Assembly (NCBI RefSeq): GCF_900215655.1
Contig: NZ_OBEN01000009.1
Coordinates: 1 to 63,276 of the forward strand
Source: Hydrogenobacter hydrogenophilus
GTDB lineage: Bacteria > Aquificota > Aquificia > Aquificales > Aquificaceae
DNA length: 63,276 nt
Direction: 5' to 3'
In this document: positions 34,049 to 37,914 of the stretch, in pieces
How positions within the stretch are numbered: the first letter of the stretch is position 1
How the letters are laid out: each line of letters starts with the position of its first letter
Notes under the pieces: generated by a model
Told to the model about the DNA's origin: nothing
What the model saw: the letters and a program-made list of their open reading frames with translations, nothing else
Databases searched by the model: none
Position numbers and translations under genes: made by a program

Positions 34049-35305
34049 TTATCCGAACATATCCCTCCACAAACCTTTTGCCCATTCTATATACCTCTTA
34101 GCGGTAGATTCCCTCCTTTGATTGTCTTCTCTGTGTATGGGTATAAACCTTCCTTTGTCTTTCTCGTACTTGAAGCTCGTCTCCGTCATTATGGCTTCTT
34201 TATCACTTACCATAGCGTAGCAAACCATCTGTAAAAGCTCTTCCTTTACTTCTCTTCCCTTTAATCTTGCGCTTATGATTTTGGCAACTACCTTTCCTTC
34301 AGAGTGAGCTGCATAACCACTTTTTGGCAGGTAGCTGACGCAAGCATCACCTATGACGAAGACATTTTCCATATGCGTTTCGAAGGTTAACGGGTTTACG
34401 CTTACCCATTTTTCTTTCTTTTTGATGAGTCCTGCAGAAGCCAAAATGCTGTTAGCCTTCATAGGCGGTATTATGTTTGCAATGTCAAACTTGAAGTCTC
34501 CGTGAGATGTTTTAACTATCCTTTTCCTTACATCTACATCCTTTACCTCCGCAGATGTCACATAGGTGGCAACATCTTTATAAAGGTCATAGTAAGCAGA
34601 CATAAAGCCTTCTGAGTTTATAAGTGGTCTTTCGTTGGCATCTATGAAGTAGAGGTGTGCTTTTAGTTTGTTTCTCTTTATCATGTTTGCTATGAGAGCT
34701 GCTCTTTCATAAGGTGCTGGTGGACACCTGTAGGGTGGTGGAGGGACTGTTATTACTATATCTCCACCTTCAAACTCACTTAGAAGCTTTTTGAGGTATA
34801 TGTGTTCGGAGCCAGGTTTAAAAGCAGGAGGGTAATAAACGAGACTTTCTGAGTAAAAGGGCTTATCTTCCACATCGTAATCTATGCCAGGAGATAGGAT
34901 TAAAAAGTCATAGTTCACATATCCCTGAGAGGTTTTGACTGCTTTTTTATCAAGCTCTATGGCTATCACTTTGTCCGTGATCACCTTTACACCATGCTTA
35001 ACTTCCAAGGTATTGTAAGCAAAGCACAAAGAAGTGAGCTCCATCAAACCTGCCAGAAAGTGATTAGAAAGAGGACACGACATAAAAAAGGGTCTTTCCT
35101 CTATCAGAACTACACTTAGGTCTGGGTTCTCTTTTTTAAGATATTTTGCAGCAGTAACACCGCCGTACCCACCACCCACTATTACCACCTTTGCGCTTCC
35201 TCTCTTTGGCTGGTTTTTAGAGAAGGCTATTGTGGGAAAGAGACTTAACCCTGCAACTGTCTTTATAATGTCCCTTCTACTAACACCTGATGGTTTCTTT
35301 GACAT
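34049..35305 (-). CDS. FccB-like FAD sulfide dehydrogenase, Tat-exported (copy 1)
   Basis: 418 aa from the ATG at 35305 (SD GGAGGTGG). Tat signal SRRDIIK; FAD-binding VVIVGGGYGGVTAAKYL; YRCPPAPYERA and the later VCYAMVS cysteine correspond to the redox-active Cys pair of flavocytochrome c sulfide dehydrogenase; FVIGDACVSYLPKSGYAA is the second FAD motif. Periplasmic. Unlike FccAB no cytochrome c gene is adjacent. Overlaps the Rieske gene by 26 nt. Confidence 0.88.
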   Translation of the reverse strand: MSKKPSGVSRRDIIKTVAGLSLFPTIAFSKNQPKRGSAKVVIVGGGYGGVTAAKYLKKENPDLSVVLIEERPFFMSCPLSNHFLAGLMELTSLCFAYNTLEVKHGVKVITDKVIAIELDKKAVKTSQGYVNYDFLILSPGIDYDVEDKPFYSESLVYYPPAFKPGSEHIYLKKLLSEFEGGDIVITVPPPPYRCPPAPYERAALIANMIKRNKLKAHLYFIDANERPLINSEGFMSAYYDLYKDVATYVTSAEVKDVDVRKRIVKTSHGDFKFDIANIIPPMKANSILASAGLIKKKEKWVSVNPLTFETHMENVFVIGDACVSYLPKSGYAAHSEGKVVAKIISARLKGREVKEELLQMVCYAMVSDKEAIMTETSFKYEKDKGRFIPIHREDNQRRESTAKRYIEWAKGLWRDMFG

Positions 35306-35996
35306 ACTTTTCCACCTCCAAAACAATGCATTTATCCACGAGTTCCTTTGCCTTAGCGGAAGAGCCGTACTGTTTCCTCAGATCCGTTTTGTAGTTCTCA
35401 AAAAAGGCATCAAACTGGTCTTTTCCAAGAATACCTACTGCGAAAAGCTTACCACCATCTTCTTCCAATACCACCGACGCCAAAGGCAGTTCTGCTGGAC
35501 CCTCTAAAACCTTTCCTCCCGCCTTTGGATCAAAGACAGAGAGGTGCGCACAGCACTGTATTACACCTGCTTTTTTTGTAGTTCCTGAGGGTTTATCAGG
35601 AGGGTAATAATTTATAAATGCGTACTCTTTTGTAGGATAGCTCCATTGATGAGAACATATGGCAGAGTAAGCCACTATACTCTTTTTGCTTCCCACACCA
35701 CCTTTCCAAAGGTAAGTTTTTCCATCACTCAGCTTTACTTCTACACCTTTTACCTCTTCCCCAAGATTTAAAAGAAAGCAAGGTGTAGAGGTAAAAGGAT
35801 AAAAGAATAAATACTCCTTATGAGGGAGTATGTCTTTTTCAGTGATGGGTGAGCCGTCCTCTTTGATAAGAAGGGCTTTGTTGTAGAGTTTTAAGAATCC
35901 TTCCTGATTAGCTAATACATTAGAAAAAAAAGAAGCGTCCAAAAAGGACGCCACAGCCACAGTTCCACAGGTTTTTATGAAGTCCCTCCTGTTCAT
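35280..35996 (-). CDS. Tat-exported Rieske [2Fe-2S] protein
   Basis: 238 aa from the ATG at 35996 (AGGAG seven bases upstream). Tat signal NRRDFIK then a hydrophobic stretch. Cluster ligands C-S-H and C-C-A-H (ICSHQW ... QCCAHLSVFDP) are 31 residues apart, with the LEGPAELPL loop after them: a full Rieske domain. No bc1 genes are near; instead FccB-like flavoproteins flank it on both sides in one operon, so it may carry their electrons. The C-terminal about 50 residues form a helical extension. Confidence 0.85.
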   Translation of the reverse strand: MNRRDFIKTCGTVAVASFLDASFFSNVLANQEGFLKLYNKALLIKEDGSPITEKDILPHKEYLFFYPFTSTPCFLLNLGEEVKGVEVKLSDGKTYLWKGGVGSKKSIVAYSAICSHQWSYPTKEYAFINYYPPDKPSGTTKKAGVIQCCAHLSVFDPKAGGKVLEGPAELPLASVVLEEDGGKLFAVGILGKDQFDAFFENYKTDLRKQYGSSAKAKELVDKCIVLEVEKYVKETIRC

Positions 35997-36025
35997 ACCT
36001 ATACTCCTATCAATATCCGTGCCAA

Positions 36026-37342
36026 TTATGAGAACATGTCTTTGTACATGCTCTTTGCCCATTCATAAGTAGCTTTGGCAAGGTCTGTAGAGCGTTCGTT
36101 TATTACCTTTGGCTTTGGTACTATCTTCTTCTCTTTGTCATTGTAGTCATAAGTGACGTTTATGACAATGGCTTCCTGAGGGTCTCCATTAACCATAGAG
36201 TAGCAGGTGTTGTCAGGAAGTGTAGGTTTTACATCTTTCCCTGCTATGCGCCCCGCTATGATCTTTGCTACTATTTTACCCTGTGAGTTGCCCATGTGCC
36301 CACTCTTGGGGTAAGGAGTGCCACCTATGACATCACCCACCAAAAACACATGTGGGTCTGATTTAGCTTGGAAGGTAAGAGGATCCTGATCTGCCCAGCC
36401 TGTAGGTTTGCCGTCTTTGTCCTTTGCTATAAGGTCTGCCATCCATACGAGCTCTCCCGCTTGATGGGGAGGTACCAGGTTGGCATCCGTAAACTTAAAG
36501 TCTCCAGCCGTGGTTTTTATAACCTTCTTTACTGGATCCACTTCCTTTATTTGAGCTTTGGGAACATACTCCACTATACCCAGATAAAGCTGTTCGTAGG
36601 CAGCTCTAAAGCCAGGACCCTTAGGAGCTATATCATCCTTAGGGTCAAGTATGATGACCCTTCCTTTTACATTGTTCTTCTTAAAGACATACGCTATCAT
36701 TGCGGCACGTTCATAGGGTGCTGGTGGACATCTGAAAGCTCCTGGGGGTACGGTTATAACAAAGTCGCCTTCTTCAAACTCCCAAACTTTCCTTTTGAGA
36801 GCTAGGTGTTCTGAACCCGGTATAAAAGCTGCCGGATAATTGATCTTTGTGTAAGCTACCATATCTTTATCCCCTTTAAACCACGCGTCGTAATTGTAGC
36901 GAATACCAGGAGCAAGAACCAGGTAGTCATACTCTATATAACCGTGATTGGTATAAACCCTCTTTTTGTCTCTTTCTATGCCTACAACCACTGCGTTTAT
37001 AAATCTGTATCCGTACTTGGAAGCAGGCTGATTGTAGTCATGAGATAGAAAGTCAAGATTTACGAGATTGGCAAGCCATTCATTAGATATGGGACAGGAA
37101 AAGAAGTTTGGTCTTTTTTCAATAAGGATAACTTCTATGTTAGGATTTTCTTTTTTGAGATACTTGGCAACGGTAAGCCCTGCCCATCCACCACCGCATA
37201 TGACTACCCTATTACCTTTAGGTGATGGAAGCATAGCGGAAAACTTCTTTTTTTCTGCGGCTGTAAAGCCCACAGAAGGAAGCCCCACTGTCAAAGCCCC
37301 AACTCCTGCCAACTTAAAAAGATCGCGCCTGCTTAAGCTCAT
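36026..37342 (-). CDS. FccB-like FAD sulfide dehydrogenase, Tat-exported (copy 2)
   Basis: 438 aa from the ATG at 37342 (SD GGAGG). Tat signal SRRDLFK; VVICGGGWAGLTVAKYL; FRCPPAPYERA and TCYSMVNGDP as the two cysteine sites; FLVGDVIGGTPYPKSGH near the end. Clearly paralogous to the 34049 gene along its whole length, but closer to textbook FccB at the TCYS site. First gene of the operon, transcribed from the promoter at 37373-37400. Confidence 0.9.
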   Translation of the reverse strand: MSLSRRDLFKLAGVGALTVGLPSVGFTAAEKKKFSAMLPSPKGNRVVICGGGWAGLTVAKYLKKENPNIEVILIEKRPNFFSCPISNEWLANLVNLDFLSHDYNQPASKYGYRFINAVVVGIERDKKRVYTNHGYIEYDYLVLAPGIRYNYDAWFKGDKDMVAYTKINYPAAFIPGSEHLALKRKVWEFEEGDFVITVPPGAFRCPPAPYERAAMIAYVFKKNNVKGRVIILDPKDDIAPKGPGFRAAYEQLYLGIVEYVPKAQIKEVDPVKKVIKTTAGDFKFTDANLVPPHQAGELVWMADLIAKDKDGKPTGWADQDPLTFQAKSDPHVFLVGDVIGGTPYPKSGHMGNSQGKIVAKIIAGRIAGKDVKPTLPDNTCYSMVNGDPQEAIVINVTYDYNDKEKKIVPKPKVINERSTDLAKATYEWAKSMYKDMFS

Positions 37343-37372
37343 GTTCTTTACCTCCCATAAAGTTTTCATGAA

Positions 37373-37521: not shown

Positions 37522-37550
37522 TTGAAAAATAATCACAACAAGTGTATAAT
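37522..37550 (+). promoter_or_regulatory. acpP promoter
   Basis: TTGAAA (37522-37527), 17-nt spacer, TATAAT (37545-37550). Expected start near 37557, giving a leader of about 120 nt before acpP, far longer than other leaders in this window. Between here and the divergent FccB promoter (37401-37521) I see only AT-rich sequence. Confidence 0.65.
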
Positions 37551-37570
37551 CTTATACCGTAAAAAATACT

Positions 37571-37661
37571 GGAGCACACCTAAAACCGCCTGCTGGGGTT
37601 GGGTGTGCTTTAAAAGGCGGGATACAAATACCCCAGCACCAGACCTAATACTACGGTCTGG
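37571..37661 (+). ncRNA. Structured 5' leader of acpP with three crossing helices
   Basis: Three perfect complementary pairs interlock: A AGCACACC 37573-37580 with 37602-37609; B CCGCCT 37586-37591 with 37615-37620; C GCTGGGGT 37592-37599 with 37630-37637. Order on the strand is A B C A' B' C', so each crosses the others. A plus C makes an H-type pseudoknot with a 2-nt junction, and B would join its two loops. A last hairpin CCAGACC/GGTCTGG (37639-37661) follows without a U-tract, 16 nt before the acpP ATG. No known family recognised; a riboswitch or protein-binding leader controlling fatty-acid synthesis is inference. Confidence 0.6.
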
Positions 37662-37677
37662 TTATTGGGATTAAGCA

Positions 37678-37914
37678 ATGGATTTAGAGCAGAAGGTAAA
37701 AGAGATCATAGCAGATCAGTTAGGAGTTGAGGTAGAAAAGCTAAGCCCTGAAGCTAAATTTGTTGAGGATCTGGGAGCAGACTCCCTTGATGTGGTAGAG
37801 CTTATAATGGCTTTTGAAGAGGAATTCGGCATTGAAATACCTGACGAAGATGCTGAGAAGATAAGAACAGTAGGTGATGTTATCGATTATCTCAAGGAGA
37901 AAGTGAAGGGCTGA
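37678..37914 (+). CDS. acpP: Acyl carrier protein
   Basis: 78 aa, acidic. [10 protein letters not shown] holds the 4'-phosphopantetheine site Ser36. Carries acyl chains in type II fatty-acid synthesis; holo-ACP synthase is encoded at 54529-54888 in this window. No clear Shine-Dalgarno, only GGGA seven bases upstream, after the structured leader. The stop overlaps fabF by one base. Confidence 0.98.

Follow-up and report, generated by a model that had tools for sequence, protein, structure and literature searches.

What is the structured RNA that precedes acpP in Hydrogenobacter hydrogenophilus, where did it come from, and how might it act? The window analyzed here is a 63,276-nt stretch of this genome, to which all coordinates refer; G codes designate genomes (G000 being the window's own and the others those compared with it) and L codes designate loci.

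The acpP leader and its crossing helices

The original prediction placed three crossing complementary pairs in the acpP leader, and direct checking put their positions right to within a base or two. The mutually crossing helices, ordered A B C A' B' C', span 37573–37638 upstream of acpP (Table 1). Helix C comprises 9 bp, or 8 bp when T37591 goes to helix B, for which a sixth pair (T37591-A37615) is possible and competes with helix C for that base. A fourth hairpin of 7 bp (hairpin D, 37639–37661) lies where it had been predicted, ending 16 nt before the acpP ATG at 37678; its letters differ among species, and the hairpin itself is retained in most. The good promoter expected just upstream is also present, and TTGAAA/TATAAT is found directly upstream in the relatives G026 and G028 as well.

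Table 1. Features of the acpP leader and its surroundings, in window coordinates.
Feature	Position	Strand	Description
Promoter	37522–37550	+	−35 TTGAAA at 37522–37527, 17-nt spacer, −10 TATAAT at 37545–37550; 11 of 12 matches
Helix A, 5' strand AGCACACC	37573–37580	+	Pairs with GGTGTGCT, 8 bp; covariation
Linker A-B	37581–37585	+	Conserved in the alignment; UAAAA at acpP, AAAUA usual
Helix B, 5' strand CCGCC	37586–37590	+	Pairs with GGCGG; C-G to G-C in 10 of 103 sequences
Helix C, 5' strand TGCTGGGGT	37591–37599	+	Pairs with ACCCCAGCA; compensatory changes
Helix A, 3' strand GGTGTGCT	37602–37609	+	Pairs with 37573–37580; covariation
Helix B, 3' strand GGCGG	37616–37620	+	Pairs with CCGCC at 37586–37590
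Loop GAUACAAAU(A) between B' and C'	37621–37629	+	Near-invariant in the alignment
Helix C, 3' strand ACCCCAGCA	37630–37638	+	Pairs with TGCTGGGGT at 37591–37599
Hairpin D, 7 bp	37639–37661	+	CCAGACC at 37639–37645 with GGTCTGG at 37655–37661
TTATTGGG	37662–37669	+	By sequence comparison, probably where linked copies have the transposon right end (T)TAACCAGG; now a weak Shine-Dalgarno sequence
acpP	37678–37914	+	Acyl carrier protein, 78 aa (TIGR00517, 3.2e-33)

Chance origin had been judged very unlikely, and none of 20,000 dinucleotide shuffles of 37557–37677 contained, in 70 nt or less, an ABCA'B'C' arrangement that reached 8/6/8 bp; a 6/6/6 set arose in 14 of 20,000, and nested folding alone gave z = −4.5. 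The test proposed at the time, conservation and covariation of the helices in relatives, was passed, with compensatory changes in all three helices among 103 homologues. Helix A averaged 9.5 bp, as against 4.1 bp when A and A' were taken from different sequences, and 71 different inner A strands occurred among the 103 sequences. Each position of helices B and C was paired in 91–100% of sequences, and B1 (CG/GC), C2, C3, C5, and C7 carry compensatory changes; the first position of B is C-G in 93 and G-C in 10 of the 103, and the third position of C is U-A in 67, C-G in 29, and G-C in 6. Changes on both sides of a pair were seen in 91 cells vs. 25 in shuffles (26 sequences, one register), and the linkers AAAUA and rAUAnAAAUA were nearly invariant in sequence. 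Since the three helices are conserved jointly, the alignment argues for their simultaneous formation in the predicted fold. That this is a genuine RNA family, new and of a rare topology with covariation in every helix, we regard as virtually certain.

Neither stand-alone nor transposon-linked copies (both described below) matched any family of Rfam 15, and a known RNA family was therefore discarded as an explanation. None of the riboswitch families of Rfam was matched at gathering score, in agreement with the original view that the leader belongs to no known riboswitch class. The main text of Lechner 2014, on Aquificales ncRNAs, does not mention acpP.

Copies at gene starts in Aquificota and beyond

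A search with 37540–37690 recovered three further copies in the window's own genome, four in all, and matches in 32 of the 64 genomes of the family. Pattern scanning of 84,980 species yielded at least 80 stretches in Aquificota, Thermodesulfobacteriota, a Desulfobacterales MAG, Thermosediminibacteraceae and relatives, and Caldicoprobacter; three matches (L038, L060, and L097) were set aside as false positives. Outside Aquificota, the carriers are some Thermodesulfobacteriota and Clostridia. A covariance model into which only helix A was entered as pairs matched 90 of 136 Aquificota genomes. G050 had the largest set, 35 copies that stood clearly apart from lower-scoring matches (E 1.2e-7, next 0.5), and G018 and G063 contained 18 and 16 copies, respectively.

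A same-strand start codon, in most cases that of a housekeeping gene, followed C' within 120 nt in 187 of 188 distinct copies (median 39 nt). The downstream genes confirmed by profile encode the acyl carrier protein itself, ribosomal proteins S20, L32, S11, and L21, two Hfq paralogues, IF-3, EF-Ts, NDK, an Hsp20-like protein, Cmr4, SHMT, MetE, IlvC, HtpX, Rho, RpoA, PPase, an HPF-family protein, MreB, FtsH, and a ribonucleotide-reductase-like protein (ATP cone); S18, S21, L25, L17, ThiG, TrxA, and others were named from N-terminal sequence only. Several genes are headed by the RNA in two genomes of different genera, G050 sharing rpsT and ppa with G018, hfq and ilvC with G063, rho with G057, and rpoA with G097. 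Many copies, including many in G050, lie within operons, where they have no promoter of their own.

This breadth bears on function. The leader had been proposed as a possible new regulatory RNA, perhaps sensing acyl-ACP, malonyl-CoA, or a ribosomal/RNase III signal. A new, conserved, structured leader with crossing helices it is, but a pathway-specific sensor of that kind was rejected, as the same RNA heads dozens of genes with no relation to one another, among them rpsT, hfq, htpX, nrdA, ppa, and ilvC, and shares homology with the end of IS607 TnpB transposons that forms the reRNA.

Some groups of copies stand out. In Thermosediminibacteraceae and relatives (L057, L081, L086, L091, and L098) the leader heads one and the same gene (MGIVGCYLMPHP...), which is an independent case of orthologous conservation outside Aquificota. 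About 11 copies in G050 (e.g., L170, L171, L174, L176–L178, and L180–L184) share a near-identical A-C' core with differing hairpins D and flanks, as if the core had spread or been converted as a unit in a genome lacking this TnpB. The Desulfobacterales MAG (L036–L100, contigs JAMOPX01) contains some 20 or more near-identical copies that carry a tnpB 3' part of varying length, nearly all of them directly before a gene start.

Relation to an IS607 TnpB element

A second set of copies, in Hydrogenothermaceae, G028, and the Desulfobacterales MAG, overlaps tnpB at the 3' end of its ORF and lies on the same strand, and the TnpB ORFs with the RNA score above cut-off for TIGR01765 and TIGR01766. The unit repeated in G028 begins close to the tnpB start and ends at (T)TAACCAGG, and full-length copies are preceded by GGAGG and then TTAA(A/C)AACAGTTGA or a close variant. 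One locus, L266, is a complete element, comprising an IS607-family transposase TnpA, a serine recombinase (NF033518, 9.9e-69), TnpB (TIGR01766, 1.1e-18), and the RNA, bounded on the left by AAGGAGG and on the right by CTAACCAGG followed by the ATG of the next gene; TnpA is not adjacent to most other copies. An IS607 TnpA/TnpB pair adjacent to L217 was set aside as evidence, its TnpB being of another type and the RNA there standing alone. An IS200/IS605 origin (Y1 transposase) was rejected because PF01797 is absent from most carriers and an IS607 recombinase was found instead.

The insertion site could be read from a PfpI-family gene, at which the empty site is AAGGAGGTTAAAGC-ATG in G000 and AAGGAGGTTGAAGC-ATG in G025, with similar sequences in G026 and G027, and the filled site in G028 holds the element between AGAGGAGG and TTTGCT-ATG. 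Insertion there was at GG without target duplication, as is known of IS607 (PMC6188088), and placed the element exactly between the gene's Shine-Dalgarno (SD) sequence GGAGG and its start codon. By inference, the target of the element is the SD sequence itself, which would account for the orientation, position, and spacing of all copies; the predicted guide would then be the start of the downstream gene, and every gene start a potential target. In linked copies the terminal TAACC, which abuts the predicted guide, has a potential pairing partner upstream in GGTTAG..TC, and these copies lie at the tnpB 3' end, the place expected of a TnpB guide RNA (reRNA). We conclude that the acpP-type RNA is very probably homologous to the reRNA of IS607 TnpB, and apparently provides the scaffold for a group of IS607 TnpB proteins, as yet undescribed, whose elements insert at SD sequences. 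Within the open-access literature, we found no report of IS607 TnpB in Aquificales.

HEARO, the omegaRNA of IscB, is likewise a conserved RNA tied to a transposon ORF, although the nuclease there is of a family other than TnpB, and no Rfam family matches the RNA described here. A close comparison is with the RAGATH-18 reRNA of IS607 TnpB (ISFba1), which is likewise structured, pseudoknotted, and located downstream of an IS607 tnpB, and whose TnpBs require an AGGAG or GAGGG TAM, the former comparable with the GGAGG at the left ends of the elements here (PMC11061315). The two RNAs differ in that the acpP-type RNA has no match to the Rfam covariance model of RAGATH-18 and overlaps the tnpB 3' end, whereas the RAGATH-18 reRNA lies outside the coding sequence and has another helix order (PMC11061315). 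There, 36% of RAGATH-18 RNAs are given as not adjoining an IS607 TnpB, and 5'-leader copies at housekeeping genes, as seen here, do not figure in the passages considered (PMC11061315). The omegaRNA of ISDra2 TnpB has a pseudoknot strand immediately before the guide, which is at the 3' end, the same position as that proposed for TAACC/GGTTA of linked copies; as described in that paper, however, ISDra2 TnpB belongs to another family, with a TTGAT TAM and another scaffold architecture (PMC10097598).

Stand-alone leaders and their possible action

The acpP copy has no tnpB directly upstream, where promoter and intergenic DNA are found instead, and the window's own genome contains only a 51-aa fragment of this TnpB, away from acpP, along with other TnpB homologues. 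The GGTTAG..TC segment, which 34 copies carry, is missing from all 35 copies in G050 and all 17 distinct copies in G018; of the four copies in the window's own genome, the one before cmr4 has it, and those at acpP, hsp20, and nrdA do not. The acpP copy thus lacks the guide-proximal pseudoknot (GGTTA with TAACC), its 5' partner being absent, and a TAACC-like trace of the right end persists in 46 of 156 copies without the 5' partner. With the partner of the terminal pseudoknot gone, these sequences point to a loss of guide function in the stand-alone copies. A decay intermediate is preserved in the window's own genome at L003 (G000:C10:39265–39511), where an internally deleted tnpB, its N-terminus joined to its C-terminus, together with the RNA immediately precedes the cmr4 gene belonging to a type III-B CRISPR module.

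Such copies might be no more than decayed transposon scars or non-autonomous relics, devoid of host function, which repeated homing to identical gene starts would maintain or produce anew. Transposon-linked copies and copies with tnpB fragments are indeed common in G097, G101, G028, and the Desulfobacterales MAG, many G050 copies have a near-identical core, and the 46 traces of the right end fit this reading as well. Conservation of the stand-alone leaders speaks against it. Among five species of the genus, the A-C' segment at acpP is 94% invariant, as compared with 73% for the first 60 nt of acpP, 27% for the stretch from promoter to helix A, and 5% further upstream. Among 11 species with an orthologous htpX leader, 7 of 9 helix A pairs have changed on both sides, some via G-U intermediates, with B and C invariant; this TnpB family is missing from 8 of the 11 genomes, and any TnpB from at least five. 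G018, with 18 copies, and G057 likewise lack any TnpB; of the genomes concerned, G035, G036, G050, and G057 are single-contig assemblies, and elsewhere TnpB absence may reflect draft incompleteness. Because the acpP and htpX leaders are conserved and compensated, and because G018 maintains its copies without TnpB, relic status alone does not account for leader conservation, and we consider it an unlikely description of the whole. The stand-alone leaders show purifying and compensatory selection, also in genomes without TnpB, and have probably been selected for a role in cis.

Descent could also have run the other way, an old cis-regulatory RNA of the host having been taken up by an IS607 TnpB element to serve as scaffold of its guide RNA. 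Stand-alone copies outnumber linked ones and occur in lineages without this TnpB, as this order of events would have it; yet they sit where SD-targeting insertion would leave them, 46 of the 156 without the 5' partner still bear the right-end trace, and the deleted tnpB before cmr4 looks like a step in the opposite direction. We regard capture of a host leader as improbable. Overall, the origin of the family in an IS607 TnpB element is well supported; the direction of descent and the function are inferred.

The explanation that we favor, with reasonable though not strong confidence, is that a transposon reRNA scaffold was exapted as an mRNA leader that acts in cis. IS607 TnpB elements that target SD sequences would insert between the SD sequence and the start codon, tnpB and the left end would then be lost, and a stand-alone leader that presumably no longer serves as a guide would remain and act on its own mRNA. 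Held slightly less firmly is the genome-wide form of this account, in which seeding at SD sequences and tnpB loss were followed by selection of the knot before up to 35 housekeeping genes per genome, so that the guide-RNA scaffold became a general mRNA leader. The existence of stand-alone copies in 5' UTRs, among them those of hfq, rho, htpX, acpP, and genes for ribosomal proteins and RNA polymerase, suggests that a CRISPR ancestor can have its RNA half domesticated while the protein is left behind; if this is true, transposons would be added to the sources of bacterial leader RNAs.

As to the particular action, we tentatively suggest a 5'-UTR module that is preformed and needs no ligand. Such a compact knot, located at the transcript 5' end or close to it, or at a cistron boundary in operons, would shield the mRNA and prevent misfolding of the ribosome-binding site, which lies between hairpin D and the ATG. 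A promoter ending within 45 nt of helix A precedes 28 of 145 stand-alone copies vs. 5 in the control window, often so near that the transcript would begin at helix A, which with modest confidence favors a preformed structural leader. No RNase J homologue scored above cut-off in 10 genomes; the leader as an RNase J roadblock was accordingly rejected, and the knot is unlikely to shield against a 5'-to-3' exonuclease of this kind. Compared with control ORFs, genes with the leader do not have weaker SD sequences; the knot is therefore no obvious replacement for the SD sequence, and the leader as substitute for a weak one was likewise discarded.

Alternatively, the leaders could be landing sites for a trans-acting protein, either TnpB or a host RNA-binding protein, that represses or processes the mRNA as a post-transcriptional counterpart of TldR. 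The homologous RNA overlaps tnpB in the transposon, the window's own genome has other TnpB homologues, and TnpB-family proteins have been exapted as regulators in the case of TldR, likewise a host use of a TnpB system (PMC13418256). In TldR systems, however, protein and guide are both retained to repress DNA targets, whereas the leaders described here retain only the RNA scaffold, in cis, and no TnpB. Regulation in trans by this TnpB was rejected given the carriers that lack any TnpB, and the guide-proximal pseudoknot is lost; a host protein may bind the knot, but no candidate was found, and protein landing as a whole seems doubtful to us. Least likely is a riboswitch, with the conserved core as receptor for a general metabolite or ion that would control the expression of many genes: an invariant core with a freely varying helix A recalls aptamers, and a freed C' strand at acpP could pair with the GGG before the ATG, but the downstream genes share no common pathway, there is no conserved expression platform or terminator, no Rfam class matched, and transposon copies share the core conservation, which TnpB binding would explain there.

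At acpP, the 3' half of C' (CCCAG) can pair, around hairpin D, with UUGGG located 8 nt before the ATG (37632–37669), and the GGG before the ATG is retained in all five acpP leaders; this pairing is a possible SD-masking alternative fold specific to acpP. Divergent to acpP, on the minus strand at 34049–37369, two paralogous FAD-dependent oxidoreductase-like ORFs surround a third ORF with a twin-arginine-like start, and judged by eye the former look like sulfide-dehydrogenase-type proteins.
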